Part shown: positions 396 through 20,218 of the stretch, one piece after another
Layout: every line of letters begins with the position of its first letter
Position numbering within the stretch: position 1 is the stretch's first letter
From: a virus
DNA: 20,218 bases
Reading direction: 5' to 3' (one strand)
IMG/VR virus record: IMGVR_UViG_3300009000_000056
Span: 1-20,218 of that record
The notes under the pieces: model-generated
What the model was told of the DNA's origin: nothing
Database searches by the model: none
The model's input: only the letters and a program-made list of their open reading frames with translations
Made by a program: the position numbers and the translations under genes

Positions 396-529
396 GTTTG
401 TATGGTTATAAATATACACTTACTTAGTGTAGTATTATGGTACCAATATAATAGTATACAACCAAGTCTTTTTAGTTGTCAGACTTTTAGAACTGTTGTA
501 TTGTATAAATACTTGATTTAACTAAAAAC
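396..529. promoter_or_regulatory. Divergent intergenic region between ardA and terminase
   Basis: This 134-bp, very AT-rich gap separates two genes that are transcribed in opposite directions, so it must hold promoters for both. On the plus strand TTGTCA (476-481) and TATTGT (499-504) lie 17 bp apart and would start transcription about 19 nt before the terminase ATG. A TATAAT also sits at 447-452 without a good -35 box. On the minus strand CATAAT (complement of 434-439) is a possible -10 for ardA. A perfect 6-5-6 inverted repeat, TACACT-TACTT-AGTGTA (415-431), could be an operator. A weaker pair, AAGTCT (464-469) and AGACTT (481-486), is also present. No open reading frame is supported. The promoter boxes are by eye and are not strong matches. 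Confidence 0.45.
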
Positions 530-2401: not shown

Positions 2402-4228
2402 ATGCAATTAAAAGACACACACAAAAAGCGTGCAGTTACTCACGTTAAAAAAACTAAAGCAAAATACAAAACTGGTTGCGAAAAGCAACACGGTAGACTA
2501 TCAGCTATTAGAGAAGAGATTATGCGAAATAAATTGATATATGACGAGAGTCATTTATATCAAGGCATGAGTACAACGAAAGTTAACTTTAGTAAGAACA
2601 TTGAGGACAATATTGTAGCCAGATTGATGGCTAAACCAATGAAGTTTTTGGCTTCGTACAAACATCCATTCGCACAAATTGAAAGAAGTTACAAAAAAAT
2701 TGATAAGGAAGATTTAAGAGAGTGGCCGATTAGAATTGCTACTTATCTAAATGCTGTTTTTGCTACTCACGAATTGAGAAAGTTACAAGAGTTAGTTTTG
2801 CGAAATCTTATTAGATACGGTAACGCTTATGTCATACCTACTTTCAAAGTTGATTTTTATTCAACTATGAAAAACGGAAAAATACAAAAGAAAATTAAAG
2901 GCGAACGACCAGAGTTTGAAGTCGTGCCAGTTACTAACATGTTTTTAGATAACAGGTTTAAGGACGTACAAAAAAGCCCAGCAGTTATCAGAGTTCACGA
3001 TAAGGTTACACTTTCAGAGCTTTACAGTGTGTCCGATCAATTAGAAAAAGGAGTTTTAGAAAATATAGAGGTACACAAGGACGGTGGCTACAAAATACAT
3101 CAGCCAAAATCACACCAAAACGATTATAAAATTGTAAAAGAGTTTAGCATTGATAAGTTTTACGGGTATTTTAACCCGACAATTGGTAGCCAAAAAGTAG
3201 ACCATAAAGCCGAAGCGTTGTATGAGATTTGGACGTTGAACGATGCTTTGTGTTTAAAAATTCAACCAATCCCGCAAATACCTATTAAATCTGTAGGTTT
3301 GTTTAATGATACTGAAGATCACTACTCTGTCGGTCTAATTGAGCCAATCATGGGACTTGAAAGGCTTTACAACCTAAGATCAAACCAAGCTCAAAAATTG
3401 GTTAATATGGGACTAAACAGAAATTTTATTGTTGGTAACACTGGTTCGTTTACAATCGCAGACGTTAATGCTTTGAATCAACCTGGCGGAATCTTGGTTG
3501 CTCAAGGTTCTGCAATAGATGCACAGCAAAACATTGTTGAAATGCCAGTACCACAAATCAACCCTGACTATTTTGCGACACAGAACGAAATTGTAAGAAA
3601 TATTCAAAAGCTAACTTACACAATTGACACTACGGCAACATCTTCACAACAAGGGTTCACAAACACAGCCACAGCAGTGAGGGCAAGATTCTACGAGTCG
3701 AACACAATGTACGCTTACATTCTACGCAAATTTGAAAACTTCTTTGCTGAGTTAGCTTATGAACTCTTAGAGCAAGTATATCAACATTCTAGTGTAGACA
3801 TCTTTTTAAATTCAGGCGATCAACTACAAAAAGACCGCCGTGTATTTATGAAGGACGCGTTTGGTCAAGCACCTCTTAAATATGTTATTGAGGTAGAAAT
3901 GAACAGCTCTAGTTTTGAAGATATAGAATCTAAACGAGAAGACGCCCTAGCTATGCTTCAAGTGTTAACACAAGCGAAACAAATGGAAGTGCCAGTTAAG
4001 CTAAATGAAGGAGTCAAAAAGGTATTAGAATCGTTTGAACGTGTAAACCCAGAAAAGCTAATTGAAGATCAAATGGTTACAGATCTTGAGGGTCTTATGG
4101 GACAGATGCAACAGCAAGCAGGAGGACAAGCAGCACCGCGCATTAACCCAGAAAAACAAACACCACGGGCAACGGGTTTAGATAACCCAGAGCAACTCAC
4201 ACAAGACGTGGCTTTAGGAAACATTTAA
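2402..4228 (+). CDS. Portal (head-tail connector) protein
   Basis: The portal forms the dodecameric ring at one capsid vertex through which terminase threads DNA and to which the tail attaches. The 608-residue length, the position directly after terminase and before scaffold and capsid, and the sequence character support this call. An N-terminal basic stretch (about residues 1-35) leads into a helical region (90-140, including LQELVLRNLIRYGNAYVIP). It is followed by a mixed core with PVTNMFLDNRF (about residue 177), a long helix (about 320-345, LERLYNLRSNQAQ) and a Gln/Pro-rich C-terminal tail (about 560-608), as is common in podovirus-type portals. The start ATG has no Shine-Dalgarno sequence (leader AAGCTCCGCCC). 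It lies 44 nt after the previous stop and 10 nt before the next gene. The family call rests on context and general resemblance rather than a diagnostic motif. Confidence 0.82.
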   Translation: MQLKDTHKKRAVTHVKKTKAKYKTGCEKQHGRLSAIREEIMRNKLIYDESHLYQGMSTTKVNFSKNIEDNIVARLMAKPMKFLASYKHPFAQIERSYKKIDKEDLREWPIRIATYLNAVFATHELRKLQELVLRNLIRYGNAYVIPTFKVDFYSTMKNGKIQKKIKGERPEFEVVPVTNMFLDNRFKDVQKSPAVIRVHDKVTLSELYSVSDQLEKGVLENIEVHKDGGYKIHQPKSHQNDYKIVKEFSIDKFYGYFNPTIGSQKVDHKAEALYEIWTLNDALCLKIQPIPQIPIKSVGLFNDTEDHYSVGLIEPIMGLERLYNLRSNQAQKLVNMGLNRNFIVGNTGSFTIADVNALNQPGGILVAQGSAIDAQQNIVEMPVPQINPDYFATQNEIVRNIQKLTYTIDTTATSSQQGFTNTATAVRARFYESNTMYAYILRKFENFFAELAYELLEQVYQHSSVDIFLNSGDQLQKDRRVFMKDAFGQAPLKYVIEVEMNSSSFEDIESKREDALAMLQVLTQAKQMEVPVKLNEGVKKVLESFERVNPEKLIEDQMVTDLEGLMGQMQQQAGGQAAPRINPEKQTPRATGLDNPEQLTQDVALGNI

Positions 4229-4534: not shown

Positions 4535-4579
4535 TATCGAATCCAGCCTACTATCCGTGTTGGTAGGTTGGATTCGGTG
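4535..4579 (+). promoter_or_regulatory. Strong RNA hairpin upstream of the scaffold gene
   Basis: The left arm CGAATCCAGCCTAC (4538-4551) pairs with the right arm GTAGGTTGGATTCG (4563-4576) across an 11-nt loop, with a single G-U wobble. Two more wobbles and an A-U pair extend the stem to 4535-4551 with 4563-4579. It begins 2 nt after the preceding stop codon and ends 30 nt before the scaffold ATG. There is no T-run after it, so it does not look like a standard intrinsic terminator. An RNase III processing site or a stabilising 5' structure for scaffold and capsid mRNA is a reasonable guess. Confidence 0.6.
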
Positions 4580-4609
4580 TATTACCGTTTAATATCTAAC
4601 TCGTTTCAA

Positions 4610-5266
4610 ATGACAAACGAAAACCACAACTTGGAAAACCAAGTGCAGGACGTGAGCCCACAAGTGGACAACTCACAGGCACAAGCAGACCAAGCGGTCG
4701 AACAAAACAGCCCACAAGATGGACAACTGTTAGGAGGCAAATTTAAATCACAAGAAGATTTATTGAAAGCCTACAAAGAACTAGAAAAAGCCTCGTCGCA
4801 AAAAAGTGAAGAGCTTTCAAAATATAGAAAAGCTTTTGACTTAGTAAACGAGCAAGAGGATGCACAACCGACACAAGAATCAAATGATCTTGCAGCAGCG
4901 GTTGAGATGCTCGCTCAATACTTCCCGACGAAGGACGAACTAGCTCAACGTCAAAGAGTAGATAATTACTTTTCTGATGTGGCTCCAGACCTAGTTGAAC
5001 ATAAAGACAAGATTCAACAATGGGGTCAACTTCCAGAAAATCAAGGTAAATCCATCGAAGAGGTAGCAGATAGCTACCAAAAAACATTTTTAAAAAATCT
5101 TCCAGCGGATACCAAACCCAGTGCATTAGGTCAAAACAATGTGCCACAAAAAGAGCTTCACGAATTATCAAGAGAAGAACTCATTGAGGCTACAGGATTG
5201 TCGAGATATTTGCCTTATGGGGTAGTACAAAAAAACGTACAAGGTCGCTTGAGGAGAAAATACTAA
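4610..5266 (+). CDS. Capsid assembly scaffolding protein
   Basis: Scaffolding proteins guide coat protein into a closed prohead and leave or are degraded before DNA packaging. The 218 residues show the usual design: an extended acidic Gln/Asn-rich N-terminus (1-38), the phage-scaffold signature GGKFKSQEDLLKAYKELEK (about 42-60), a helical, probably coiled-coil middle, and a basic C-terminal end, GRLRRKY, of the sort that contacts coat protein. It sits directly before the major capsid gene (12-nt gap), the canonical position. The ATG at 4610 was chosen over an in-frame TTG at 4568, because the TTG lies inside the right arm of the hairpin and would add residues unlike a scaffold N-terminus. No Shine-Dalgarno sequence is present. 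Confidence 0.85.
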   Translation: MTNENHNLENQVQDVSPQVDNSQAQADQAVEQNSPQDGQLLGGKFKSQEDLLKAYKELEKASSQKSEELSKYRKAFDLVNEQEDAQPTQESNDLAAAVEMLAQYFPTKDELAQRQRVDNYFSDVAPDLVEHKDKIQQWGQLPENQGKSIEEVADSYQKTFLKNLPADTKPSALGQNNVPQKELHELSREELIEATGLSRYLPYGVVQKNVQGRLRRKY

Positions 5267-5278
5267 CCCATTTACAAT

Positions 5279-6550
5279 ATGGCATTTCGAGAGTTGGTAA
5301 ACCCAACATTAAAAAATATGCGAGCGGAGACTTATTCTTCAATGCTCCAAGAAATTTATCAAGCAAACTCAGTCATTGAACAAGTGGCATCTACTACAGC
5401 TCAATCAGAACTGGGTACAAATCAAACATATCACAGAGCTTCAATTGATGGTTTCTTTTCTGGACTTAAAAAAATTGACGCTGGTCAAGATATTCCTAAA
5501 TCTCCTTTAGGAGCTATTGACGAAACTCTGACAATTGACAGATATTTCGGTGACAGATTTGAAATCCCAGAAGTTCAATCAGAACTTGAAAGATTTAATC
5601 TTAGACAAGAGTTTGGTGCTCTTAAAATGAGAGAGCTAGCTCTTCAAATTGATGGGGATTGTTTAGGTCATATGGCTGAATCAGCTTCAATTCAACTAGA
5701 TGCAGGTGATTTTGGTGGAAACGCAGGTGAACCACTACGTCTAGCAGCAGGTACAATCGAAGATATTGTCCCAGCTATTAAAGCAGAGCTTTCTTTGAAC
5801 AAAGTTTCAGGTACTGACATGGTAGGTATCATCACACCAGAGTTTGTGAAAATTCTTACTTCTCAAACTCAAGGTCGTGCAACTGAATTCGGTGACGCAA
5901 TTCTAAGAAATGGTTTTATGTCTGGTGAAGTTCTACGACATCAAGGTTTCACTATGTACGAATCAGTAAACGTTCCAGTTTCTCTATACCTAGATATGAC
6001 AGGTAACGCGGTTGATGGGCAAACAGTTTCAATCAACGGTGCTACTGTTACTTTCAAAGATGTAGTAGCGGCTAAAGGTCAAGTAGCGATTGGTGCAGAT
6101 GCAGTTGAAACAATGACTAACTTGAAAAACTTCTTTGAAAACCCAACATCTGGAGACTTCTCACACGTTGCATATAATGCAGAATCAGACCACTCTTCTT
6201 TAGTTCCTCTTGGATTTGGTTCTAAATTTGAAATCACTGTTACTGATCAAGGTGCTGGAGCAGCAGAAGTTAAATTCTTTATGCTTGGTGGCAACCTTAG
6301 AATTAAATCTACACTTGCTGAAACTTTGACTAACGGTTCTTGGAACTCTGACAAACATTCACAACATATTATCTTCACTAAACGTGGCGGTATTGAACTA
6401 GTAAGAGCTATCGCTCCTAAAACTGCTTTTGTGTCTGCTGATGCGAACATGTTCCAACAAAGTGAAATTGTTAAATTGACTGCCCTTTATGGTAGAAAAG
6501 TATTTGCTGATCAAAAGCAATCTATTCTATCTCTACGAGCAGCCCTTTAA
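5279..6550 (+). CDS. Major capsid protein
   Basis: This 423-residue protein is called the major capsid protein from its size, its place right after the scaffold, the intrinsic terminator immediately behind it, and its sequence character. It opens MAFRELVNPTLKNMRAETYS and has the long helix ERFNLRQEFGALKMRELALQ (about 103-122), as expected for the spine-helix part of an HK97-type fold. Residues about 241-302 contain a separate-looking segment starting AVDGQTVSINGATVTF and ending near HVAYNAES, which resembles a surface insertion domain found in some capsid proteins. The C-terminal part returns to core-like sequence, KRGGIELVRAIAPKTAFVSA. The ATG lies 12 nt after the scaffold stop without a Shine-Dalgarno sequence. 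The fold assignment is inference; a structure prediction would settle it. Confidence 0.9.
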   Translation: MAFRELVNPTLKNMRAETYSSMLQEIYQANSVIEQVASTTAQSELGTNQTYHRASIDGFFSGLKKIDAGQDIPKSPLGAIDETLTIDRYFGDRFEIPEVQSELERFNLRQEFGALKMRELALQIDGDCLGHMAESASIQLDAGDFGGNAGEPLRLAAGTIEDIVPAIKAELSLNKVSGTDMVGIITPEFVKILTSQTQGRATEFGDAILRNGFMSGEVLRHQGFTMYESVNVPVSLYLDMTGNAVDGQTVSINGATVTFKDVVAAKGQVAIGADAVETMTNLKNFFENPTSGDFSHVAYNAESDHSSLVPLGFGSKFEITVTDQGAGAAEVKFFMLGGNLRIKSTLAETLTNGSWNSDKHSQHIIFTKRGGIELVRAIAPKTAFVSADANMFQQSEIVKLTALYGRKVFADQKQSILSLRAAL

Positions 6551-6600: not shown

Positions 6601-9600
6601 ATGGTATATGTACAAAAACAAGTCATATCATACCAAATAGATGATATAACGGCTGATCAAATTAATGCAGATCAATTCGTTGGTACTCATGTGGGTGATG
6701 TGATGTCTGTTGATGGTGTCATTTTAGTCGATGGCACAAACAAAAAAATATACGCTCCAAATGGTTTTGTCGGTGATGTTGTTGGTAATGCCACAACTGT
6801 TACTAATGGTGTTTACACTGTTGGAGATCAAACCATTGAGGGGGTAAAAACATTTCAAGATAAAGTAGTAGCTTTTAGTGGCGTTGACACTCCACACCTA
6901 AGCGACAATCTAGGGAATCAAGCTATTGTAATCAGTGAAGGTAGTGAATCAACTTCTCCAAGAGTCACTATTCTTGGTGAACTTATTATACAAGGCGAAC
7001 GAACTGTAATGAATACAAGCGTTGTAGATGTTGAAGATATTAATATTACACTAGCAAAAAACAATAGCAGTTCAGCTGTTTTGGTTGGGTCTGGTCTCAC
7101 TTTAAGTGGTGGAACTGGTGATGATGTAACTTTTGTTTGGTCATCAAGCAATACAATGACTTTAAACTCGCCACTAGATATTTCTAACGGTGATGTTCGA
7201 ATCCAAAGCGGTGATTTAACTGTTAGCGGAGATGTAGCAGCTAGAAAAGCAGCGTTTACAGATTCGGTAGTTACTCCAGAAATTCAAGCTACAGTTGTAG
7301 CTCAGGATAATACTACACTTTTAAACAAAGACACTAAATCATTAACGGTTGATACAGTAGTTGCCCCATCTATTACTGGTGATGTGACAGGTACAGTTTC
7401 AGATATTTCAAATCATACAACAAACGAACTTGCAGAAGGTACGCAAAATCTATATTACACAGATACTAGAGTTCACGAAGCTTTGTCTGCTGGTGTTGGC
7501 GTTCATTATAACGGCTCTGGTGAGTTTTCTATTGGTCAAGAAGTAGAAACTACTAGCGATGTAACTTTTAACGCTCTAACGGCAAGTTCTGACGTTGTCG
7601 TAGGTGGTGATGTTTCTGTTTCTGGTGGTCGTGTGTATGTAAAAGGAGACCCTCAATCTGTTGGTGTTGAGCTTTACAGCGAACAAACAAACGGTGGTGC
7701 TTTAAGATTCCACACAAAAGCAGGACAAACAGCATTTATCTCAACAACAGAAGGAAACGCCCCTATTACAGTTACAACCTCTTTATTATGGGTTCGTGCT
7801 ATTAATGGCGGTAGTGGTGATGCGATGGTTGATGGTGACTTAGAGGTCAAAGGCACACTATCTGGACCAACTATCACAGCACTTCAAGCCTCTGCCTCTG
7901 CTGACTTGGAACAAGAACGCCAAGAACGCATTGCAGGCGATAACTTGCTACAAACAAACATTGATAGCCTAAGTGCTGATTTAGCTACTGAAACAGCAAA
8001 CAGAATTGCGGCGGACGATGCTTTTACAGCTGATTTAGCTACCGAACAAGCTTTGAGAGATGCTCAACATGCAGAAATTCAAGGAAACATCGAAGCAGAA
8101 TCAAACGCAAGACAAGTTGCAGATGCTAATACTTTAACTGCAGCTAACAACTACACAGATATTGAGATTGCCAATCTTGTGGCTTCAGCTCCAACTACTT
8201 TAGATACTCTCAATGAAATTGCTCAAGCACTAGGCAACGACCCAAACTTAGCAACGACTTTGACTAATCAAATTGCAGGCGTTCAAGCTAACTTAGACGC
8301 TGAAATTGCAACTACTAACTCAGAAGTCACAGCACTTCAAGACCAAGATGTAATACTACAGAATAATATTGATACAGAAGCGGCAAACAGGGTTTCTGGA
8401 GATGCTACACTTCAAGGAAGTATCAACACAGTAGCGGCTAATTTAGCGACTGAAACTACTAATAGAGAAAGTGCAGATACAACATTGCAATCTAATATTG
8501 ATACAGAAGCGGCAACTCGTGCTAGTGCAGACACTACACTTCAAAACAACATTGATACTGTAGCTTCAGATTTAGCGGCTGAAATATCAGCTACTAATGC
8601 GGATGTTTCTGGTTTATCTGCTCAAGATGCAATTTTACAATCTAATATTGATTCAGAAGAAGCAGCTAGAATTTCTGGTGACAGTACATTGCAAACAAAC
8701 ATAGACACAGAGGCAACAACTAGAGCGGCGGACGATGCAACTTTGCAAGCAAACATTGACGCACTTGAAACAGCGTTACAAAATGAAATTAACGCTACTA
8801 ATGCAGATGTTTCGACTCTACAAGCAGCCGACATTACACTACAATCAAATATTGATACTGTAGCAGCTAATTTAGCAACTGAAATATCTACTACAAACAG
8901 CGAAGTTTCAGCACTACAAGCACAAGATCAAGTTTTACAAGCAAATATAGATGCAGAAGAGGCGGCTAGAATTTCATCAGACAACGCTTTAACATCTGCA
9001 ATCAGTCTAAAATTAGCAAAAGCGGAATTTGGTACGTATCACGACACTGAAATAGCTTCAACATCAGTAGGTGAGCTTTCAGACGTTGATTTGACTGGTA
9101 TTCAATCAGGACAAATTTTAAAATGGGACGGTTCTAAATTAGCCCCAGGCACTGATCAAGAAGACTTATCAAACAACAGCACAGACGACTTGTCGGAAGG
9201 TACAAGCAATCTTTACTATACTGATTCAAGAGTTGGTGCTTACCTTGCTACAACTGACCCTATTGCCATAGGTGGTAAAATTAATTTAGATAGTGGTACA
9301 GCATATATTGATTATGACACGGCGACTGGTTCTCTAGTGTTCAATTCACTGTCTACATTGTCTACAGACCCACTTGTAATCAATCAACAAGGTCAAATTG
9401 TTGCTGATTATGGTGTTGTTGGTGATTTAACTGGTGATGTTCTTGGAACTGTTTCAGATCTTTCGAATCATACGACTGATGCTTTAAATGAAGGTACTAC
9501 AAATGTATATTTTACAAATTTCCGTGCAAGACAAGCTGTTTCAGCAACTGGAGATTTAAGTTACGATAGTGCTACTGGTATATTTAGTTTTACTGAAAGA

Positions 9601-12213
9601 ACTGACAGTGAAGTAACAGCACTTGCAGACGCAGCAATTACTGCGACTTTGGCTGGTGATGTGACAATCGGTGGTGACTTAATTATTGACGAAGGTGCAG
9701 GCCCACAAATTAGACTTAGAAGCGAATCAAATGTTGCGGCTGGTATAGACTTTCAAAACGGTGGTTCTGGCTCTTACGCTTACATTGATTCAACTAACGG
9801 TTACGGTAACGACAATTTGCAAATCTGGTCAACTTTACTTTGGGCTAGAGCAATCAACGGTTCAACTGGTAAAATCAAGGCTGATGGCACTATAGAATCA
9901 ACTGGTGGTTTCCTAGGTAATGTAACAGGAACGGTTTCAGATATTTCAAACCATGATACTGATGCACTATCAGAAGGAACTGCAAACCTTTACTACACTG
10001 ATACAAGAGTAGGTGATTATTTAACTGCAAACGGTTATGCACTACAAACAAGCGTTGATACTGTCGCAGCTGATTTAGCTACTGAAATTTCAACTACAAA
10101 CAGCGAAATTACAGCCTTACAATCACAAGACACTGTACTACAAGGTAATATAGATGCAGAGGAAACTGCAAGAATTGCAGGAGATGCAAGCACTTTAAGC
10201 TCTGCACAATCTTATACTGACAGTGCTTTAGCAAGTTTGGTTAATAGTGCTCCAACTACGCTTGACACACTAAATGAAATTGCCGCAGCGTTAGGCGATG
10301 ATCCAAATTTTGCCACTACTATAACTACAAGTATTGGAACTAAATTGGCAACTGCTGATTTTGACTCTACTTTTGACACTAGACTAGCGACTAAAACAAC
10401 AAGTGATCTGACAGAAGGTACAAACCTTTATTATACTGATGCTAGGGTTGCTTCTTATCTCTCAAGTGGTGCAAGCATAGATATTAATGCGGCACTTGCT
10501 ACTGGCGACATCACAATAGATGCAGGTGGAGACGAAGCTAAACTTACTTTTGTACTAGAAACAAATGGAGGTGCAGATACTGGCTCAATTATCTTTACTA
10601 GAAACTCTGGCGGTGCTGATATTGGTGCTATTAAATACATCCGTTCACAAGACGCTTTAAATTTTTATACTAACGGCACTACATCTGCTGATGTCACTAT
10701 TAATAGTTCGGGTACTCTTGTTGCTAATAATGGTATCACTGGTAATTTGACGGGCAATGTAACTGGTACTGTATCAGATATTTCAAACCATGATACTGGA
10801 GCTCTTGCTGAAGGAACTAACCTTTACTACACAGATGCAAGAGTAGACGCTAGAATAGCTGCTGCTTCTGTAACTGACTTATCAGATGTAGATCAAACAC
10901 TTGCAACTACAAGCAATGTTTCATTCGATTCAGTTAAATTTACTAACAGCACTTCAAGCGCGACATTATCAGAAGATAACACTTACGAAACTATTGGTGT
11001 GACAATTGGAGATGGAACTAATTCACCTATAAATTTACAAGGTTTAATTTATGGTAAGGCTACACAAAATTTAAATACTGGTGATGTTTTGTATTTTGCA
11101 GGGGTTCAAGGTGATCATATATTATTTACAGTGGCTGATATGAGTAGCCCTTCATTTGACCCTACGTATGTTGTTGGTATTTGTAACAAAGCAATTAACG
11201 CAAATGACTTTGGTTATGCTGTTACAGATGGTGTTGTTGTTGTAAACACTTCAACTCTGCAAGCTGGTGATGTTTTATATTTAGATCCAAACAACGCAGG
11301 TCAACTTACAACAACTGTTCCAACTTACCCAGAACACATTATTCAAGTGGCTGTTGTAACTCGTGCAGCTAATGACGGTAAATTACAAGTAAGATTTACA
11401 CACATTAATGATATAGATGAATTAGCAAATGTAAGTATTACAAATATTGCTGATGGTCAAATTCTTACTTATAACAAAAATTCTTTTGCGTGGGAAAACA
11501 CTGATCTGCCTACTTACACTACAAGTGATATTTCAGAAGGTACAAATCTTTACTTTACTGATGAACGTGTAGACGATAGAGTTTCTCAATTGTTACAAGC
11601 AGGGACGAATATTACTTTGAGCTATGACGATGTAGGTAACACGCTAACTATTAATTCAAGCGGAGGCTTAAATTCAATTTCTGGAACTACAAACGAAGTT
11701 ACAGTTACTGAACCTACAACTGGTAATTTTGAAATTGGGTTACCAAGTACGGTTCGTGTATCAAACGTGCTACAAGTTAATACAACTAGCACAGCTGGTG
11801 CGTTGAATGTTAATGGCAAATCTAATTTAGGAGGCGATACTACTATTACTGGTAGATTGCATACAATAGGTGAAGCTTCACAATCTTTTAATGGAAGTGA
11901 TAACGGCACTTCTGCTAATCAATTGGATATTAGCAAATCCGTAGTTTATATTGATGAAGCTAGTGGAAATGCAAAAGATATTTATCTTTCTATCCCTACT
12001 GGTTCAGATGGACAAGAATTAACGATATTGATTGTTCCTGGCTATACTGGTTTATATACTATTTATATTGAAGACACAAACGGAGGAACAGTTCCTACAA
12101 ATATTAATGGAACGGCTCAATTTGGGTCATATAACCGTTCAGCAAGGCTGAGATATTCAGCGAATTACGGTTTATGGTTCTTTGTTGGTGGCGATGCTTT
12201 TATGCAATATTAA
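6601..12213 (+). CDS. Large modular tail fibre / virion structural protein (1870 aa)
   Basis: This is very probably a trimeric phage fibre built from recurring modules. The N-terminal part has the fibre motif GDQTIEGVKTF (about residues 75-85) and a GELIIQGERTVMNTS / VEDINITLAKN segment (about 126-153), which is widespread in marine phage fibres. Seven copies of an EGT-(x)NLYYTDxRV motif have their LYYT or equivalent at about residues 281, 871, 969, 1130, 1276, 1408 and 1650. Four of them follow a GTVSD(I/L)SNH segment. Residues about 426-810 form a long coiled-coil-like stalk of LQxNIDxExxxR units. A TLDTLNEIAxALG module occurs twice. The last 110 residues, after SQSFNGSDNG, form a distinct beta-rich tip ending GDAFMQY. 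No catalytic motif is seen. The start has an A-rich leader and no Shine-Dalgarno sequence. Receptor binding is likely but inferred. Confidence 0.85.
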   Translation: MVYVQKQVISYQIDDITADQINADQFVGTHVGDVMSVDGVILVDGTNKKIYAPNGFVGDVVGNATTVTNGVYTVGDQTIEGVKTFQDKVVAFSGVDTPHLSDNLGNQAIVISEGSESTSPRVTILGELIIQGERTVMNTSVVDVEDINITLAKNNSSSAVLVGSGLTLSGGTGDDVTFVWSSSNTMTLNSPLDISNGDVRIQSGDLTVSGDVAARKAAFTDSVVTPEIQATVVAQDNTTLLNKDTKSLTVDTVVAPSITGDVTGTVSDISNHTTNELAEGTQNLYYTDTRVHEALSAGVGVHYNGSGEFSIGQEVETTSDVTFNALTASSDVVVGGDVSVSGGRVYVKGDPQSVGVELYSEQTNGGALRFHTKAGQTAFISTTEGNAPITVTTSLLWVRAINGGSGDAMVDGDLEVKGTLSGPTITALQASASADLEQERQERIAGDNLLQTNIDSLSADLATETANRIAADDAFTADLATEQALRDAQHAEIQGNIEAESNARQVADANTLTAANNYTDIEIANLVASAPTTLDTLNEIAQALGNDPNLATTLTNQIAGVQANLDAEIATTNSEVTALQDQDVILQNNIDTEAANRVSGDATLQGSINTVAANLATETTNRESADTTLQSNIDTEAATRASADTTLQNNIDTVASDLAAEISATNADVSGLSAQDAILQSNIDSEEAARISGDSTLQTNIDTEATTRAADDATLQANIDALETALQNEINATNADVSTLQAADITLQSNIDTVAANLATEISTTNSEVSALQAQDQVLQANIDAEEAARISSDNALTSAISLKLAKAEFGTYHDTEIASTSVGELSDVDLTGIQSGQILKWDGSKLAPGTDQEDLSNNSTDDLSEGTSNLYYTDSRVGAYLATTDPIAIGGKINLDSGTAYIDYDTATGSLVFNSLSTLSTDPLVINQQGQIVADYGVVGDLTGDVLGTVSDLSNHTTDALNEGTTNVYFTNFRARQAVSATGDLSYDSATGIFSFTERTDSEVTALADAAITATLAGDVTIGGDLIIDEGAGPQIRLRSESNVAAGIDFQNGGSGSYAYIDSTNGYGNDNLQIWSTLLWARAINGSTGKIKADGTIESTGGFLGNVTGTVSDISNHDTDALSEGTANLYYTDTRVGDYLTANGYALQTSVDTVAADLATEISTTNSEITALQSQDTVLQGNIDAEETARIAGDASTLSSAQSYTDSALASLVNSAPTTLDTLNEIAAALGDDPNFATTITTSIGTKLATADFDSTFDTRLATKTTSDLTEGTNLYYTDARVASYLSSGASIDINAALATGDITIDAGGDEAKLTFVLETNGGADTGSIIFTRNSGGADIGAIKYIRSQDALNFYTNGTTSADVTINSSGTLVANNGITGNLTGNVTGTVSDISNHDTGALAEGTNLYYTDARVDARIAAASVTDLSDVDQTLATTSNVSFDSVKFTNSTSSATLSEDNTYETIGVTIGDGTNSPINLQGLIYGKATQNLNTGDVLYFAGVQGDHILFTVADMSSPSFDPTYVVGICNKAINANDFGYAVTDGVVVVNTSTLQAGDVLYLDPNNAGQLTTTVPTYPEHIIQVAVVTRAANDGKLQVRFTHINDIDELANVSITNIADGQILTYNKNSFAWENTDLPTYTTSDISEGTNLYFTDERVDDRVSQLLQAGTNITLSYDDVGNTLTINSSGGLNSISGTTNEVTVTEPTTGNFEIGLPSTVRVSNVLQVNTTSTAGALNVNGKSNLGGDTTITGRLHTIGEASQSFNGSDNGTSANQLDISKSVVYIDEASGNAKDIYLSIPTGSDGQELTILIVPGYTGLYTIYIEDTNGGTVPTNINGTAQFGSYNRSARLRYSANYGLWFFVGGDAFMQY
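7876..9030 (+). repeat. Coiled-coil stalk repeats within the 1870-aa fibre
   Basis: This in-frame stretch encodes about 385 residues made of degenerate copies of a unit such as LQSNIDTEAATRASAD, alternating with DLAxEISxTNxDVxALQ units. The hydrophobic spacing and the Asp/Glu/Arg content fit a trimeric coiled-coil stalk. Copies differ at many synonymous and some non-synonymous positions. The TLDTLNEIAQALG module (about 8196-8235) interrupts it, and a related copy lies downstream near 10257-10296 with a shorter stalk just before it. Confidence 0.75.
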
Positions 12214-12286: not shown

Positions 12287-12475
12287 ATGCAAAAAAAATT
12301 TTATCAAGTAAGAACAAAAAGCCAAAAACCTGGAATGCAAAAGGTTTTTGAATTAGATCCGAAAAATGTAGATCCTTTATTTTGGATTGAGGTAGAAAAA
12401 CCAAAACCAATTAAAAAAACAAAAAATGAAAATAATAAAACTGCCAAACGCAAACGCAGCAAAACTGAGAATTAA
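12287..12475 (+). CDS. Small basic hypothetical protein (62 aa)
   Basis: I do not recognise this 62-residue, strongly basic protein. The first half is mixed (KPGMQKVFELDPKNVDPLF, about residues 14-32); the second half is a run of Lys, Pro, Asn and Arg ending KRKRSKTEN, which is probably disordered and could bind nucleic acid or another acidic partner. It opens the cluster that contains the giant repeat protein, and its last 50 bp overlap the start of the following gene in another frame. The start has a candidate -10 box directly upstream and no Shine-Dalgarno sequence. Its short length lowers confidence, but the position between a terminator and a tightly packed gene pair supports it as real. 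Confidence 0.6.
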   Translation: MQKKFYQVRTKSQKPGMQKVFELDPKNVDPLFWIEVEKPKPIKKTKNENNKTAKRKRSKTEN

Positions 12476-12755
12476 TAATGAATTTAAGGGGTTATACACA
12501 TTAATTAAAGAAGCCGCAGGAGATGTTAGTTTTGAGCAATTTGAAAAATTAAGGAATCAGATCGACGGTATAATACTATGGGTTGAAGGTCCAGCAGATA
12601 TACAAGCTATTTTTGATGGGAATGTAGGTGATAACAATGGTATTGATATTGGTCCAAATTATACTGAAACCTTTACACACACGAATGTTTGGAACTTTAA
12701 ATTCAAATCTACTGGTGATGATTCTTTTATGTATATACAATTATTAATTAGCTAA
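12426..12755 (+). CDS. Small virion-type protein, paralogue of the N-terminal domain of the giant repeat fibre
   Basis: This 109-residue protein aligns along its whole length with residues 1-105 of the giant protein encoded 6 nt downstream. Shared landmarks are the opening MxxxKLP, a LI-EAA helix near residue 26, GIxL-xxGxA, a DGN-NNGI segment (about 64-72), and the closing FKF-STGDD/VGDN-IQL strand. The pattern of a DGN segment followed by a polar GI(P/D)(L/I) turn and terminal beta-strands resembles a small beta domain seen in phage head-fibre and decoration proteins; that is from memory and not searched. The ATG at 12426 overlaps the upstream gene by 50 bp. It is preferred because both paralogues then begin at the same point of the alignment and because it has an A-rich leader. 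It may form the base on which the fibre assembles, or compete with it. Confidence 0.75.
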   Translation: MKIIKLPNANAAKLRINNEFKGLYTLIKEAAGDVSFEQFEKLRNQIDGIILWVEGPADIQAIFDGNVGDNNGIDIGPNYTETFTHTNVWNFKFKSTGDDSFMYIQLLIS

Positions 12756-12761
12756 AAAAAT

Positions 12762-15700
12762 ATGCAATATTACAAACTGCCCGAATTAGCATTAAGACTA
12801 ACAGTCACGAATGAAAGTGCTACTTTGCGGCAATTAATAGAAGCGGCTACTAATCAATCTATTGATTTACCAGACAGCTTGTCAGGGATTGATTTATATA
12901 ATGATGGTGCTGCAACTGTCAGATTTTTTATGGATGGGAATGACCCAGAAGCCAACAATGGTATTCCGTTAGAAACTGGCAAAATTTTTAAATTTAGAAA
13001 TTTAGACCCTCAAAGGTTTAAATTCATATCAGTTGGTGATAACACTGATATACAAATTCAATTAGGTTTCTCTAGTACTGGAGAAGCTGGAATGATAACA
13101 GATACAAGACCTGGAGCTGGTGAAGGCGGTGGTGTAGAAGGTGCTTTGATAGCAGCTAACAACTTAGGAGATTTAACGAATGTTGTTGTAGCACAGACTA
13201 ATTTAGGACTAGGCTCTTCTGCTACTAAAGATTCAGGCTCAGAAATTGGCAATGTTCTTGAAGTTGTTGATGATGGTGCGGGTAACGCAGCTTTACCAGC
13301 AATTGACGGTTCAAATTTAACAGGTATTCAGGCGGAAGGGTCTTTATTAGCTGTTAATAACCTATCTGATGTAACCGATGCAGCTACTGCACGTACTAAC
13401 ATCGGAGCTGGTACTGGTGATGGTGATGTGCTAGCAGCCAATAACCTTTCTGATTTACAAAATGCAATTATTGCAAGAACTAATCTTGGTCTTGGTAGTT
13501 CTGCCACTAAAGACGCTGGTACGTTAGGAGGTCAAGTTCTTTTATTAGATGCAGACAATGATTTACCTCAAGCTATTAGAGAATCTTTATTAGAAGGCGT
13601 AATGTTAGGAGCTAACAATTTATCAGACGTAGCTGATGCAACAGTTGCTAGAACTAACCTTGGACTAGGTACTTCTGCTACTAAAGATTCAGGTGCTGGT
13701 ATTGGAAATGTGGTTGAATTAATTGATGACGGTGCAGGAAATCCTACACTTCCAGTTATTGATGGGTCAAATTTAACAGGTATACAAGCCGAAGGTTCTT
13801 TATTAGCTGTTAACAACTTATCTGATGTAACTGATGCTGCGACAGCTCGTACTAACATCGGAGCTGGCACTGGTGACGGTGACATGCTAGCCGCTAATAA
13901 CCTAAGCGAAGTAGACCCGATACAAGCCAGAGCAAATATCGGAGCTGGTACAGGTGATGGTGATATGTTAGGGGCAAATAATTTAGCTGATGTTGCTGAT
14001 GCCGCTATAGCAAGAACAAACTTGGGAGCTGGTACAGGAGACGGAGATATGCTCGGCGCTAATAATTTAAGCGATGTAGCAGATGCAGCTACGGCAAGAA
14101 CTAACATTGGAGCGGGTACCGGTGATGGTGACTTATTAGCTGTTAATAACTTGAGCGAAGTAGATCCTGTTCAAGCTAGAGCAAATCTGGGTGCTGGTAC
14201 TGGTGATCTTTTAGCTGCAAATAATCTTAGTGATGTAACCGATGCAGCTACTGCACGTACTAACATCGGAGCTGGTACTGGTGATGGTGATGTGCTAGCA
14301 GCCAATAACCTTTCTGATGTTGCTGATGCAGCTATAGCTAGAACCAACCTTGGAGCTGGTACTGGTGATGGTGACATGTTAGGTGCCAATAACCTATCAG
14401 ATGTAACCGACGCAGCAGCAGCTCGTACTAACATCGGAGCAGGTACAGGCGATGGTGACTTACTTGCTGCTAACAACTTGTCAGAAGTAGATCCTGTTCA
14501 AGCTAGAGCAAATTTAGGTGCTGGCACTGGTGATGGTGATATGTTAGCTGCTAATAATCTAAGTGACGTTGCGGATGCAGCAGCAGCTCGTACTAACATC
14601 GGAGCAGGTACAGGTGACGGAGACTTATTAGCTGCTAATAATTTAAGTGAAGTAGACCCGATACAAGCCAGAGCTAATATTGGAGCGGGTACTGGCGATG
14701 GAGATATGTTAGGTGCTAATAACCTTTCGGATGTCGCAGATGCTGCCACAGCTAGAACTAATATTGGCGCTGGTACTGGAGATGGTGATCTTTTAGCGGC
14801 CAATAATTTATCAGATGTAACCGACGCAGCAGCAGCCAGAACCAATATTGGAGCAGGGACTGGTGACTTACTAGCTGTTAATAATTTAAGCGAGGTAGAT
14901 CCTGTTCAAGCACGTACCAATATAGGCGCAGGTACTGGAGATGGTGATATGCTTGGTGCTAATAATTTATCAGATGTAACCGACGCAGCAGCAGCCAGAA
15001 CTAACATTGGAGCGGGTACCGGTGATGGTGACTTACTAGCCGCTAACAATTTATCTGATTTAACTGATGCAGCTACTGCTAGAACAAATTTAGGATTAGC
15101 AAACTTTGGTACTGGTGACATGCTAGCCGCTAACAACCTTTCAGACGTGGCTGATCCAGTTGCAGCTAGAACCAATATTGGAGCGGGTACAGGCGATGGT
15201 GACTTACTTGCTGCTAATAATCTTAGTGACGTTGCGGATGCAGCTACGGCAAGAACTAACATTGGAGCTGGTACCGGAGATGGTGATCTTTTAGCGGCCA
15301 ATAATTTATCAGAGGTAGATCCAGTTCAGGCTAGAGCAAATATCGGTGCTGGTACTGGTGATGGTGACATGTTAGGTGCAAACAATTTATCTGACGTAGC
15401 TGATCCAGCTGTTGCCAGAACTAATCTTGGAGCTGGTACTGGTGATGGTGATCTTTTAGCGGCCAATAATTTATCTGACGTTGTTGACGCGGCTATTGCA
15501 CGTACCAACTTAGGTGCTGGCACTGGTGATGGTGACATGCTAGCCGCTAACAACTTATCTGATGTAGTAGATCCTGTTGCAGCTAGAACTAATATCGGTG
15601 CTGGCACTGGTGATTTACTAGCAGCCAACAATCTTTCGGATGTAGCAGATGCAGCGACCGCACGTGCTAACCTTGGAGCGGGAACAGGCGATGGTGACAT

Positions 15701-18700
15701 GCTTGGTGCTAATAATCTAAGTGATGTTGCTGATCCAGCAATTGCACGTACTAATATTGGAGCTGGTACTGGTGATCTTTTAGCGGCTAACAATCTTAGT
15801 GACGTAACTGATGCGGCTACCGCTAGAACTAACCTTGGAGCGGGAACAGGTGATGGAGATTTACTAGCAGCCAACAATCTTAGTGATGTGGCCGATACTG
15901 CCATTGCCAGAGCCAATTTAGGTGCTGGTACAGGCGATGGTGACTTGCTTGCTGCTAATAACTTGTCAGATGTAGCCGATGCAGCAATTGCACGTACCAA
16001 TTTAGGTGCTGGCACTGGTGACGGTGACATGTTGGGAGCAAACAATTTATCTGACGTTGTTGACGCAGCTACTGCCAGAGCAAATATCGGTGCAGGAACA
16101 GGCGACGGTGACTTGCTAGCTGTAAATAATTTAAGTGAAGTAAATCCGGTACAGGCTAGAGCTAACATCGGAGCTGGTACAGGCGATGGTGACATGCTTG
16201 GTGCCAATAACTTATCAGACGTAGCTGATGCAGCAATTGCCAGAACTAACATCGGTGCAGGTACAGGTGACGGTGACTTACTTGCTGCTAATAACCTTAT
16301 AGATGTAGCAGATGCAGCGACCGCACGTGCTAACCTTGGAGCGGGTACCGGTGATGGTGACATGTTAGGTGCTAATAACTTGTCAGATGTAACCGATGCG
16401 GCTACCGCTAGAACTAACATTGGAGCGGGTACCGGTGACGGTGATATGCTTGGTGCTAATAATTTATCTGATGTATTAGATGCGGCTACCGCTAGAACTA
16501 ACATTGGTGCGGGAACCGGAGACGGTGATATGCTTGGTGCTAATAACCTTTCAGACGTAGCAGATACTGCGATTGCTAGAACTAACCTTGGCGCTGGTAC
16601 TGGAGATGGTGATCTTTTAGCAGCTAACAACTTATCTGACTTAGCTGATCCAGCCATTGCAAGAACTAACATAGGAGCTGGAACTGGTGATCTTTTGTCC
16701 GCAAACAACTTATCTGATGTAGCCGATGCAGCGACTGCACGTGCTAACATTGGAGCAGGTACAGGCGATGGTGACTTATTAGCGGCTAATAACCTTTCAG
16801 ACGTTGACGACACTGCTGTTGCCAGAACTAATCTTGGAGCAGGTACCGGTGACGGTGATATGTTAGGTGCTAACAATCTTAGTGACGTAACTGATGCAGC
16901 TATTGCACGTGCTAACATTGGAGCTGGCACGGGCGATTTACTAGCGGTAAATAATTTATCAGAAGTAGATCCTGTTCAAGCCAGAGCTAATCTTGGAGCA
17001 GGGACTGGTGATGGTGACATGTTAGGTGCTAATAACTTGTCAGATGTAACCGATGCGGCTACCGCTAGAACTAACATTGGAGCTGGCACAGGCGATGGTG
17101 ACTTACTTGCTGCTAATAATCTTTCTGATGTAACTGACGCAGCAATTGCCAGAACTAATTTAGGTGCAGGAACAGGTGACGGTGATCTTTTAGCGGTCAA
17201 TAATTTATCAGAAGTAGATCCTGTACAAGCGAGAACGAACCTTGGAGCAGGTACAGGTGATGGAGACATGCTTGGTGCTAATAATCTAAGTGATGTAGCC
17301 GATGCAGCAGCAGCTAGAACCAACATTGGAGCGGGTACTGGTGATTTACTAGCGGTAAATAATTTATCAGAAGTAGATCCTGTACAAGCAAGAACCAATC
17401 TTGGTGCAGGTACGGGAGATGGAGACTTACTAGCAGCAAACAATTTAAGCGATGTAGCCGACACTGCCATTGCAAGAACTAACCTGGGAGCGGGTACAGG
17501 CGATGGTGATATGTTAAGTGCTAACAATCTTAGTGACGTAGCTGATGCAGCTATTGCTCGTACGAACATTGGTGCAGGTACTGGTGATGGTGATATGCTC
17601 GGCGCTAATAATTTATCTGACGTTGTTGATCCGGCTGTTGCAAGAACAAACTTGGGAGCGGGTACTGGCGACGGAGACATGTTAAGTGCAAACAACCTTT
17701 CGGATGTCGCTGATACTACTGTTGCACGTACAAACCTTGGACTAGGTACTTCTGCTGTCAAAGATTCAGGAGTAGCAATAGGAAATGTTTTAGAAATTAT
17801 TGACGTCGACCCAACACAAAACACAGTTGCTGGTTTGCCAGTCGTTGATGGTCGAAACATTACAAATATCAATATTCCAAATATTTATTTACAAAAAGCA
17901 AACAACTTATCTGATGTATTAGATGCGGCTACTGCTAGAACTAACATCGGTGCAGGTACCGGAGACGGCGATATGTTAAGTGCAAACAATCTTAGTGACG
18001 TTGCGGACACTGCTATAGCAAGAACAAACTTGGGTGCTGGTACTGGTGACGGCGATATGCTTGGTGCCAATAACTTATCAGACGTAGCTGATGCGGCTAT
18101 CGCGAGAGCAAATATTGGAGCGGGTACTGGTAATGGTGATTTACTAGCCGCAAACAATTTAAGTGAAGTAGATCCTGTTCAAGCCAGAGCAAACTTGGGA
18201 GCTGGCACTGGTGACGGTGATCTTTTAGCAGCAAACAATCTTAGTGAAGTAGATCCTGTTCAAGCTAGAGCCAATTTAGGTGCTGGTACTGGTGACGGTG
18301 ATCTTTTAGCTGCTAACAACCTTTCTGATGTTGCTGATACCGCTATAGCAAGAACAAACTTGGGAGCAGGGACTGGAGACGGTGACATGCTTGGTGCTAA
18401 CAATCTTAGTGACGTAGCTGATCCAGTTGCAGCTAGAACTAACATCGGTGCAGGTACTGGTGATGGAGATATGTTAGGTGCTAATAATCTTAGTGAAGTG
18501 GTAAATCCAGCAATTGCACGTACTAACATCGGAGCAGGTACTGGAGACGGTGATATGCTTGGTGCTAATAATCTAAGTGATGTTGCCGACACTGCTATTG
18601 CAAGAGCTAATTTAGGAGCGGGCACTGGAGATGGCGACTTACTTGCCGTTAACAACCTTTCTGATGTTGCGGATGCAGCTATAGCGAGAACGAACATTGG

Positions 18701-20218
18701 AGCAGGTACAGGTGACGGTGATCTTTTAGCTGCTAATAACTTATCAGATGTTGCTGATGCGGCTACCGCCAGAACTAACATCGGCGCAGGAACAGGCGAC
18801 GGAGATATGCTAGGAGCTAATAACCTTAGCGATGTTGCAAATCCAGCAGTTGCAAGACAAAATATTGGTGCAGGGATTGGTGATGGTGATATGTTAAGAG
18901 CCAATAACCTTTCTGATGTTGCAAATACTGTCACAGCACGTACAAACCTTGGACTAGGTACTTCTGCTACTAAAGATTCAGGCACGCAGCTTGGACAAGT
19001 GTTGTTATTAGACGCAAATAATCAACTTCCAGCCGCAATTAAAACAGACACTCGAAGCGGATTGCTTGTTAGTGCAAACAATCTTAGTGACGTTGCGGAT
19101 ACCGCAACCGCTAGAGCCAATTTAGGAGCTGGCACTGGTGACGGTGACTTACTTGCTGCTAACAATTTATCCGATGTTGCTGATGCGGCTACGGCAAGAA
19201 CTAACCTTGGAGCAGGTACCGGTGACGGTGACATGTTAGGAGCTAATAATTTATCAGACGTAGCCGATGCAGCTATTTCTAGAACTAATTTAGGTCTTGG
19301 CAGTGCTTCCACTGTAGAAGCAGGGACACTCACAGGTGAAGTTTTATTGCTTGATGCAGACAATCAACTTCCAGCCGCAATTAAAACAGATACTAGAAGT
19401 GGTTTACTTGTTGGAGCTAATAACTTATCAGACGTAGCAGATGCAGCTACTGCTAGAACTAATATTGGAGCGGGTACAGGCAACGGGGACATGTTAGGTG
19501 CTAACAACTTATCTGATGTTGCTAATCCGGCTACTGCCAGAGCTAACATTGGAGCAGGTACCGGTGACGGTGATTTACTAGCGGTTAACAATTTATTAGA
19601 CGTAGCGAATGTAGCTATAGCTAGGGCCAATCTGGGTGCTGGTACTGGTGATGGAGATATGCTAGGAGCTAATAATCTAAGTGATGTTGCGGATGCGGCT
19701 ACTGCTAGAGCTAACATAGGTGCAGGCACAGGTGATGGAGATATGTTAGGTGCTAATAACCTATCTGATGTAAACGATGCAGCTACCGCAAGAACTAACA
19801 TCGGTGCAGGTACTGGTGATGGTGACATGCTAGCCGCTAACAACTTATCTGATCTAACAAATGCAATTACTGCTAGAGGTAATTTAGGATTAGGCACAGC
19901 GGCTACTGTAGACGCTGGAACAAATGTTGGTGAAGTTCCGCAGGTTGTTGCCGTAATATCGCCAAATGGGATTGCAAACGGTTTACCTGTTTTAGATGGG
20001 TATAACCTTGTTAACTTAAATATTCCAAACATTTATTTAGAAAAAGCCAATAATTTATCTGATGTTGCCGATGCAGCAATTGCCAGAACTAACATCGGTG
20101 CAGGTACTGGTGATGGGGATATGCTTGGAGCTAATAATCTTTCTGATGTAACTGACGCAGCAATTGCACGTACTAACATTGGAGCTGGTACAGGTAATGG
20201 TGATTTACTAGCCGCAAA
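12762..20218 (+). CDS. Giant repeat tail-fibre / adhesin protein (partial, C-terminus beyond window)
   Basis: The frame opens at the ATG at 12762 with A-rich leader CTAAAAAAAT and stays open to the window end, at least 2485 codons. Residues 1-105 form a small domain paralogous to the upstream 109-residue protein. A Gly-rich hinge (GAGEGGGVEG, about 117-126) follows. From about residue 130 on it is a tandem array of a 27-28-residue unit: NNLSDVADAATARTN, then (I/L)GAGTGDGD, then (M/L)L(G/A)A. I count 76 complete copies. The NNLSDxxDAxTARxNLGL motif is known from phage tail-fibre repeats, where copy numbers are usually small. No signal peptide, membrane segment or catalytic motif is seen; the receptor-binding tip must lie outside the window. 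A long trimeric fibre is the likely role, by inference. Confidence 0.85.
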   Translation, partial: MQYYKLPELALRLTVTNESATLRQLIEAATNQSIDLPDSLSGIDLYNDGAATVRFFMDGNDPEANNGIPLETGKIFKFRNLDPQRFKFISVGDNTDIQIQLGFSSTGEAGMITDTRPGAGEGGGVEGALIAANNLGDLTNVVVAQTNLGLGSSATKDSGSEIGNVLEVVDDGAGNAALPAIDGSNLTGIQAEGSLLAVNNLSDVTDAATARTNIGAGTGDGDVLAANNLSDLQNAIIARTNLGLGSSATKDAGTLGGQVLLLDADNDLPQAIRESLLEGVMLGANNLSDVADATVARTNLGLGTSATKDSGAGIGNVVELIDDGAGNPTLPVIDGSNLTGIQAEGSLLAVNNLSDVTDAATARTNIGAGTGDGDMLAANNLSEVDPIQARANIGAGTGDGDMLGANNLADVADAAIARTNLGAGTGDGDMLGANNLSDVADAATARTNIGAGTGDGDLLAVNNLSEVDPVQARANLGAGTGDLLAANNLSDVTDAATARTNIGAGTGDGDVLAANNLSDVADAAIARTNLGAGTGDGDMLGANNLSDVTDAAAARTNIGAGTGDGDLLAANNLSEVDPVQARANLGAGTGDGDMLAANNLSDVADAAAARTNIGAGTGDGDLLAANNLSEVDPIQARANIGAGTGDGDMLGANNLSDVADAATARTNIGAGTGDGDLLAANNLSDVTDAAAARTNIGAGTGDLLAVNNLSEVDPVQARTNIGAGTGDGDMLGANNLSDVTDAAAARTNIGAGTGDGDLLAANNLSDLTDAATARTNLGLANFGTGDMLAANNLSDVADPVAARTNIGAGTGDGDLLAANNLSDVADAATARTNIGAGTGDGDLLAANNLSEVDPVQARANIGAGTGDGDMLGANNLSDVADPAVARTNLGAGTGDGDLLAANNLSDVVDAAIARTNLGAGTGDGDMLAANNLSDVVDPVAARTNIGAGTGDLLAANNLSDVADAATARANLGAGTGDGDMLGANNLSDVADPAIARTNIGAGTGDLLAANNLSDVTDAATARTNLGAGTGDGDLLAANNLSDVADTAIARANLGAGTGDGDLLAANNLSDVADAAIARTNLGAGTGDGDMLGANNLSDVVDAATARANIGAGTGDGDLLAVNNLSEVNPVQARANIGAGTGDGDMLGANNLSDVADAAIARTNIGAGTGDGDLLAANNLIDVADAATARANLGAGTGDGDMLGANNLSDVTDAATARTNIGAGTGDGDMLGANNLSDVLDAATARTNIGAGTGDGDMLGANNLSDVADTAIARTNLGAGTGDGDLLAANNLSDLADPAIARTNIGAGTGDLLSANNLSDVADAATARANIGAGTGDGDLLAANNLSDVDDTAVARTNLGAGTGDGDMLGANNLSDVTDAAIARANIGAGTGDLLAVNNLSEVDPVQARANLGAGTGDGDMLGANNLSDVTDAATARTNIGAGTGDGDLLAANNLSDVTDAAIARTNLGAGTGDGDLLAVNNLSEVDPVQARTNLGAGTGDGDMLGANNLSDVADAAAARTNIGAGTGDLLAVNNLSEVDPVQARTNLGAGTGDGDLLAANNLSDVADTAIARTNLGAGTGDGDMLSANNLSDVADAAIARTNIGAGTGDGDMLGANNLSDVVDPAVARTNLGAGTGDGDMLSANNLSDVADTTVARTNLGLGTSAVKDSGVAIGNVLEIIDVDPTQNTVAGLPVVDGRNITNINIPNIYLQKANNLSDVLDAATARTNIGAGTGDGDMLSANNLSDVADTAIARTNLGAGTGDGDMLGANNLSDVADAAIARANIGAGTGNGDLLAANNLSEVDPVQARANLGAGTGDGDLLAANNLSEVDPVQARANLGAGTGDGDLLAANNLSDVADTAIARTNLGAGTGDGDMLGANNLSDVADPVAARTNIGAGTGDGDMLGANNLSEVVNPAIARTNIGAGTGDGDMLGANNLSDVADTAIARANLGAGTGDGDLLAVNNLSDVADAAIARTNIGAGTGDGDLLAANNLSDVADAATARTNIGAGTGDGDMLGANNLSDVANPAVARQNIGAGIGDGDMLRANNLSDVANTVTARTNLGLGTSATKDSGTQLGQVLLLDANNQLPAAIKTDTRSGLLVSANNLSDVADTATARANLGAGTGDGDLLAANNLSDVADAATARTNLGAGTGDGDMLGANNLSDVADAAISRTNLGLGSASTVEAGTLTGEVLLLDADNQLPAAIKTDTRSGLLVGANNLSDVADAATARTNIGAGTGNGDMLGANNLSDVANPATARANIGAGTGDGDLLAVNNLLDVANVAIARANLGAGTGDGDMLGANNLSDVADAATARANIGAGTGDGDMLGANNLSDVNDAATARTNIGAGTGDGDMLAANNLSDLTNAITARGNLGLGTAATVDAGTNVGEVPQVVAVISPNGIANGLPVLDGYNLVNLNIPNIYLEKANNLSDVADAAIARTNIGAGTGDGDMLGANNLSDVTDAAIARTNIGAGTGNGDLLAA
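13158..20218 (+). repeat. Tandem array of at least 76 tail-fibre repeats (81-84 bp unit)
   Basis: The usual period is 84 bp (28 codons). A variant with SEVDPVQAR in place of SDVADAATAR is 81 bp, and seven junctions lack the second GD, which removes 6 bp. All length changes are multiples of three. Seven longer linkers follow copies ending GLG: about 13206-13352, 13487-13610, 13659-13809, 17736-17899, 18948-19073, 19290-19412 and 19884-20045. Between the third and fourth linkers, 48 copies run on with only one small irregularity (GLANFG near 15097). Exact long duplicates include 13367-13454 with 14231-14318 and 16350-16426 with 17007-17083. The array is cut by the window end. Confidence 0.95.

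Follow-up and report, generated by a model that had tools for sequence, protein, structure and literature searches.

The reach of a phage is set by the length of its fibres, and to our knowledge nature offers few series of fibres that share a repeat but range in its copy number from a handful to dozens. What, then, is the product of a viral gene that runs for at least 2485 codons, nearly all of them spent on a single repeat? This gene occupies positions 12762-20216 (+) of IMG/VR record IMGVR_UViG_3300009000_000056, the complete 20,218-bp sequence of which is the window analysed here. It starts with an ATG at 12762 and is still open at the contig end. Because the window is the complete record, the end of the protein lies beyond the available sequence, and an exact 35-mer from the contig end, used to seek an extension, found no match. 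The protein is incomplete, with neither a stop nor a C-terminal domain in sight, and the frame may shift past position 20218. The open frame is not a product of chance, as every one of the remaining five frames of this DNA is broken by stops, 18-378 per frame. Long antisense ORFs within the array were dismissed as a composition effect of the repeat, with only 18 stops in one antisense frame.

The repeat array covers 13155-20216 (+) up to the open contig end and comprises 76 units with a consensus of about ANNLSDVADAATARTNIGAGTGDGDMLG. Counted by their [AV]NNL motif, 49 units are 28 aa long, 11 have 27, six have 26, two have 29 and one has 25 residues, while seven carry spacers that bring them to 58, 66 or 70 aa in all. 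A unit HMM counted 77, and Tandem Repeats Finder recovered the same array with a period of 84. The spacers, of the classical GLGTSATKDSG...LLLDADNQLPAAI type, interrupt the array at unit 1 (13155-13352; 66 aa in all, GLGSSATKDSG...NLTGIQAEGSLLA), units 3 and 4 (13437-13808; 58 and 66 aa), unit 52 (17688-17897; 70 aa), unit 65 (18900-19073; 58 aa), unit 68 (19242-19415; 58 aa) and unit 74 (19836-20045; 70 aa; all +). Units 5-51 form a spacer-free stretch, so that unit 52 brings the first spacer after 47 uninterrupted units. The original prediction had described a stop-free frame of at least 2485 codons with at least 76 repeats, almost all of 27-28 residues. All three points hold, with the refinement that seven modules are longer and that the first 130 or so residues consist of a separately folded anchor and a glycine-rich linker.

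This N-terminal anchor domain (residues 1-105; 12762-13076, +) is supported by AF2 modelling, homology and Foldseek. The AF2 model, with pLDDT mostly 75-90 at residues 10-100, shows a beta-sandwich with one helix. A Gly-rich linker, GAGEGGGVEGALIA (13077-13154, +), leads from the anchor into the array and has a similar counterpart in a sister contig, L047 (IMGVR_UViG_3300021964_000970; 16.7 kb). The anchor is homologous to N-termini in L047 and two further contigs, L006 and L009, and it recurs as a stand-alone protein of 107-109 aa. In the window, such a stand-alone paralogue of 109 aa (12426-12755, +) lies directly 5' of the giant gene, an arrangement also seen in L047, and is 36% identical to the first 105 residues of the giant protein over 107 aa (E 4e-12). 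A Foldseek search of BFVD with the anchor model returned predicted marine-virus proteins at E 4e-9 to 1.5e-7. They include one stand-alone protein of 107 aa and two longer ones, of 604 aa and 392 aa, the last of which is named tail fiber protein. As predicted models, these stand-alone and longer matches mirror the pair of stand-alone and fused anchors found here. Against the PDB, the anchor model had no match at E <0.001, and the phi29 protein gp8.5 was absent among the 50 matches listed. The anchor alignment yielded no conserved stretch that could serve as a query.

The repeat itself is a phage fibre repeat. It matched PHROG families 2282, 26622, 21510 and 158 at E 6e-136 (34 stretches), 3e-107, 2e-127 and 2e-233, values that are inflated by the repeated units, and it resembles by sequence the short tail fiber gp92 of PDB 9zd7 (E 9e-9). 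The name of phrog_158, 'major tail protein', was not taken literally, since the match falls in the repeats. The proposal that this is an established tail-fibre repeat thus stands with respect to the fibre, but not with respect to a tail rather than a head attachment. Several other candidates were rejected: the Pfam NQRA_SLBB match stayed below its cutoff and, like the gamma-tubulin GCP6 matches in the PDB, reflects chance or low-complexity similarity; an RTX/calcium-binding repeat misfits, as the GAGTGDGDML spacing departs from GGxGxDxUx and no Pfam RTX match appeared; and phi29 gp8.5 is no sequence relative, the unit HMM scoring negative bits on it.

The gene lies in a virion structural module, downstream of genes for the terminase large subunit (TerL; 530-1996, phrog_38 E 1.5e-110), the portal protein (2402-4228), a probable scaffold (4568-5266, or from an alternative ATG at 4604) and the major capsid protein (MCP; 5279-6550, phrog_267 major head protein E 2e-15, 48% identical to the L047 MCP). 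The portal falls into PHROG portal families and is of SU10 type, with a match to Pfam SU10_portal (PF23899) at E 2e-8 and 33.4 bits, above the cutoff of 30. The scaffold assignment follows from its place between portal and MCP, which a gene likewise takes in L047 and in the distant relatives L003 and L006. A fibre-like virion protein of 1870 aa (6601-12213; all +) comes next; it matches PHROG tail and structural families and was aligned to a 1743-aa orthologue in L047. An ORF of 62 aa separates its gene from that of the 109-aa anchor paralogue. At the thresholds used, no cultured relative of the portal, MCP or anchor was detected in the phage collection.

In the sister contig, the gene order is the same as in the window. 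Alongside the fibre-like protein of 1743 aa and an anchor paralogue of 107 aa, L047 encodes a protein of at least 495 aa, which begins with the same anchor, continues with six repeat units and then has more than 200 aa of non-repeat C-terminal sequence. Its repeat includes a 27-aa SEVDP subtype that also occurs in the window. Units 2-4 share 83-91% of the 54 DNA bases compared and are thus young duplicates. Of the six units in the sister gene, three are therefore of recent origin; the window has at least 76, with highly diverged codons. That the same anchor and repeat occur in L047 in six units, followed by a non-repeat C-terminal region, indicates that a real gene underlies the expansion, which is particular to this lineage.

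Comparison beyond this pair gave the same contrast in copy number. The linker pattern GAGTGDGD-x-L followed by NNL was found in just two further sources, a viral contig and a Planctomycetota MAG, and a wider motif search recovered 35 viral contigs, each with only a few units. No viral contig was confirmed as a relative of the whole giant protein, the search patterns having fallen in the repeats. Among isolates, 212 records matched, none over 80% of the query, and the six that were checked, Pseudomonas and Streptomyces phages among them, have 4-6 units each. The Pseudomonas phages Otagovirus REC1 and COT4 and Nankokuvirus Ab17, together with gp92 of 9zd7, share the NNLxDxxxAxxARxNLGL motif by HMM match; their proteins, however, are only about 490-500 aa long, are annotated as tail fibres and have 4-6 units. 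The phages also differ from the window in their N-terminal region and gene neighbourhood (endolysin, chaperone), and their tail fibres have GLGTAAT... in place of the linker GAGTGDGDML. The array is the largest found within the searchable sequence, covered by pattern- and filter-limited searches, and with 4-6 units in the relatives and six in the sister, the claim of an exceptional copy number was borne out as far as the relatives found are concerned.

In the literature on comparable repeat arrays, only phiCbK gp76 and the crAssphage BACON protein were found. The latter is likewise a phage structural protein with a tandem domain array grown by duplication (PMC6949934), but it has eight Ig-like domains and its repeat is unrelated to ours. 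The repeat, the idea of a fibre repeat and giant filament proteins of phages are thus already known. What is new is how many copies of this repeat one gene has, how widely that number differs under a shared gene order, and how nearly complete the synonymous divergence is.

We consider the product of the giant gene likely to be a virion fibre of great length, anchored at its N-terminus and probably trimeric, in an uncultured phage whose head and neck module is of the short-tailed type. Residues 1-105 would bind the virion, and beyond the glycine linker the 76 or more known fibre repeats would build a thin, acidic shaft, in which the spacer modules may serve as joints. The unseen C-terminal region, which is present in the sister phage, may hold a receptor-binding part. 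The likely job of such a fibre would be a long-reach first contact with the host. Its length can be estimated by analogy: 546 residues of T4 gp34 span just over 30 nm (PMC5537660), and phiCbK gp99, with 1158 aa, was estimated at 58-95 nm (PMC3556154). At such a rise per residue, the roughly 2350 residues past the anchor would extend about 120-190 nm, which is a lower bound for the fibre as a whole.

Where on the virion this fibre would sit is less clear, and we regard attachment to head and to tail as nearly even. Both possibilities agree with the long anchored fibre and differ from each other in the site alone, to which our estimates refer. As a strict tail fibre, the protein would form trimers on the adaptor or nozzle, where it would take the place of the usual long tail fibre or add to its length, and we put this at just short of an even chance. 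The annotation of the repeat family and the short tail fibre in 9zd7 point in this direction, as do the BFVD anchor match named tail fiber protein and the contig L039, in which a weak anchor homologue lies between adaptor-like and nozzle-like genes. Against it stands the gene order, which places the giant gene beside the capsid gene, and no adaptor, nozzle or fibre chaperone gene was seen within the window, which is without any tail gene of the first two kinds. The order expected of SU10-like (Kuravirus) phages is adaptor, long fibre and nozzle; the distant relatives L003 and L006 instead have adaptor, nozzle and fibre downstream of the MCP.

Alternatively, the anchor could bind the capsid or a vertex, with the array as a long flexible filament for remote capture; the 109-aa stand-alone paralogue, which adjoins the giant gene, may likewise bind there. 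We hold this placement to be possible, if somewhat less than an even prospect. The giant gene follows the MCP, in an interval that in relatives lies between the MCP and the adaptor and nozzle genes, and in SU10 the same interval is occupied by gp10, an Ig-like protein that resembles the phi29 head fibre (PMC9509320). In the distant relatives L003, L004 and L006, a separate gene of fibre-like type follows the nozzle gene, and gene 31 of the Streptomyces phage Moab, which carries the repeat, lies between MCP and head-to-tail adaptor. Long capsid filaments have precedents in phiCbK (PMC3556154) and in the capsid fibres of phage 7-7-1 (PMC12796354). On the other hand, annotated relatives of the repeat are nearly all tail fibres, one anchor homologue bears the name tail fiber protein, the L039 homologue sits between the adaptor-like and nozzle-like genes, and many copies of so large a protein per capsid would be very costly.

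The head-filament candidate phiCbK gp76 is, at 2799 aa, also a giant protein of the virion module, encoded near the head genes, expanded by tandem duplication and proposed to form a long filament (PMC3556154); it differs in being Gly-rich, in its ConA-like domain and in the type of phage, with no sequence relation shown. phi29 gp8.5 has a trimeric stem of repeats, which rises from a beta-tulip base that binds the capsid, and is encoded directly after the MCP, but it has only 280 aa and is not matched by the unit HMM. We also noted two proteins in the MCP-adaptor interval of L006. One (21026-21448) is collagen-like (GPQGxxG), which indicates that shaft types differ at this position. The other (19250-20554), of 434 aa, appears by eye to have two LamG/ConA-like lectin domains and had no PHROG match.

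Whichever site the long virion fibre would occupy, its array bears the marks of age. The 49 units of 28 aa share on average 84% of their residues and 73% of their nucleotides. At fourfold-degenerate sites, identity is 42.2%, compared with 36.8% once the codons of the array have been shuffled. Mean pS among units is 0.703 and mean pN 0.119, which corresponds to a dN/dS of about 0.06 (Jukes-Cantor), a rough value because dS is close to saturation. A repeat too regular to be a remnant, as had been suspected from its appearance, is just what the low pN (0.12) beside a near-saturated pS (0.70) describes. At lags 1-4, the similarity between units does not exceed that of random pairs, which speaks against a recent expansion by slippage. 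Similarity is weakly raised at lag 8 (p 0.03), which fits a single 88-bp duplicate. This is one of only two exact repeats of at least 55 bp, located at 13367-13454 (+) with its second copy at +864; the other, of 77 bp, lies at 16350-16426 (+), with its second copy at +657. Identity at the protein level, near-random silent sites and the lack of likeness between neighbours together indicate an old array that is maintained by selection on the protein.

Selection is also visible in a coupling between two positions of the unit, three before the Asn pair of [AV]NNL and just before its A/V. Residues there form M-L-G or L-L-A: Met occurs with Gly over Ala at 27:5, and Leu at 1:33 (Fisher p 2e-12). Two ancestral unit lineages as the source found no support, as the codon of the intervening Leu is unlinked to the coupling (p 0.52); the preceding Asp codon shows no association either (p 1.0), and the NNL Leu codon gave p 0.03, uncorrected for several tests. 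We read the coupling as selection on side-chain packing, not as shared descent. The array would have grown by duplication, not recently, with silent sites diverging while selection held the protein repeat. The diverged DNA should also guard it from recombinational collapse, and the silent divergence might itself have been selected because it blocks recombination. We consider it doubtful, however, that all of this comes together in a capsid or vertex filament of well over 100 nm, built from a repeat that elsewhere in our searches made up short arrays in ordinary fibres, with its gene stabilised by near-complete synonymous scrambling among at least 76 copies and its reach tuned by repeat number.

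The age of the array at silent sites and its maintenance also argue against decay, recent slippage and assembly error. The last of these, by which the length or order of the array would have been mis-assembled from several loci or strains, had been named in the original prediction as the route to its refutation. The contig does stop within the array, and two stretches, of 88 and 77 bp, are repeated exactly. No exact repeat reaches 90 bp, though, so that all units are resolvable at k >=90; the frame is intact across 7.4 kb, near-identical blocks of units are absent, and L047 independently has the same type of gene. Mis-assembly is therefore unlikely, with only a small chance in our estimate. 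Given how varied the DNA of the copies is, the array probably exists as such and has long been maintained, and it is probably neither an error nor a recent expansion. A flexible non-fibre polymer, that is, a disordered or beta-solenoid single chain for display, coating or wrapping, would suit the acidic, low-complexity composition of the array (net charge -218, Cys and Trp absent) and the beta-solenoid-like, low-confidence AF2 monomer of nine units (pLDDT 58), but it is improbable in view of the residue coupling and strong protein conservation, which imply a packed fold, of a repeat family known from fibres and of a solenoid model that matched no solved structure.

Between two phages that share their gene order, the same unit thus differs at least twelvefold in copy number. 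The array is also an example from nature of a long tandem coding repeat that persists, with its protein near constant and its silent DNA near random. If the fibre does turn out to be a capsid or vertex filament, phages would tune their reach by the number of repeats, with six in the sister and at least 76 here.

The 1870-aa protein directly after the MCP (1743 aa in L047) is a second giant fibre-like product, and judging from the sequences two adjoining virion genes may both have become enlarged in this lineage. Its C-terminal domain weakly matched a 121-aa stand-alone protein after the MCP in L003 and the C-termini of 335- and 375-aa proteins in L006 (hhalign E 3e-4, probability only 39%). 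By eye, the probable terminase small subunit gene that precedes the large subunit in L047, L003 and L004 is missing 5' of TerL in the window (420-529). A 127-aa protein is encoded 3' of TerL (1974-2357), and its 114-aa counterpart in L047 lies 5' of the terminase genes, so that it appears, again by eye, to be a conserved small gene that was relocated. The window also differs in composition along its length: GC is 0.41-0.47 with a constant positive GC skew at 13001-20000, compared with 0.33-0.41 elsewhere, and is raised in the array because the repeat is rich in Ala, Gly and Asp.
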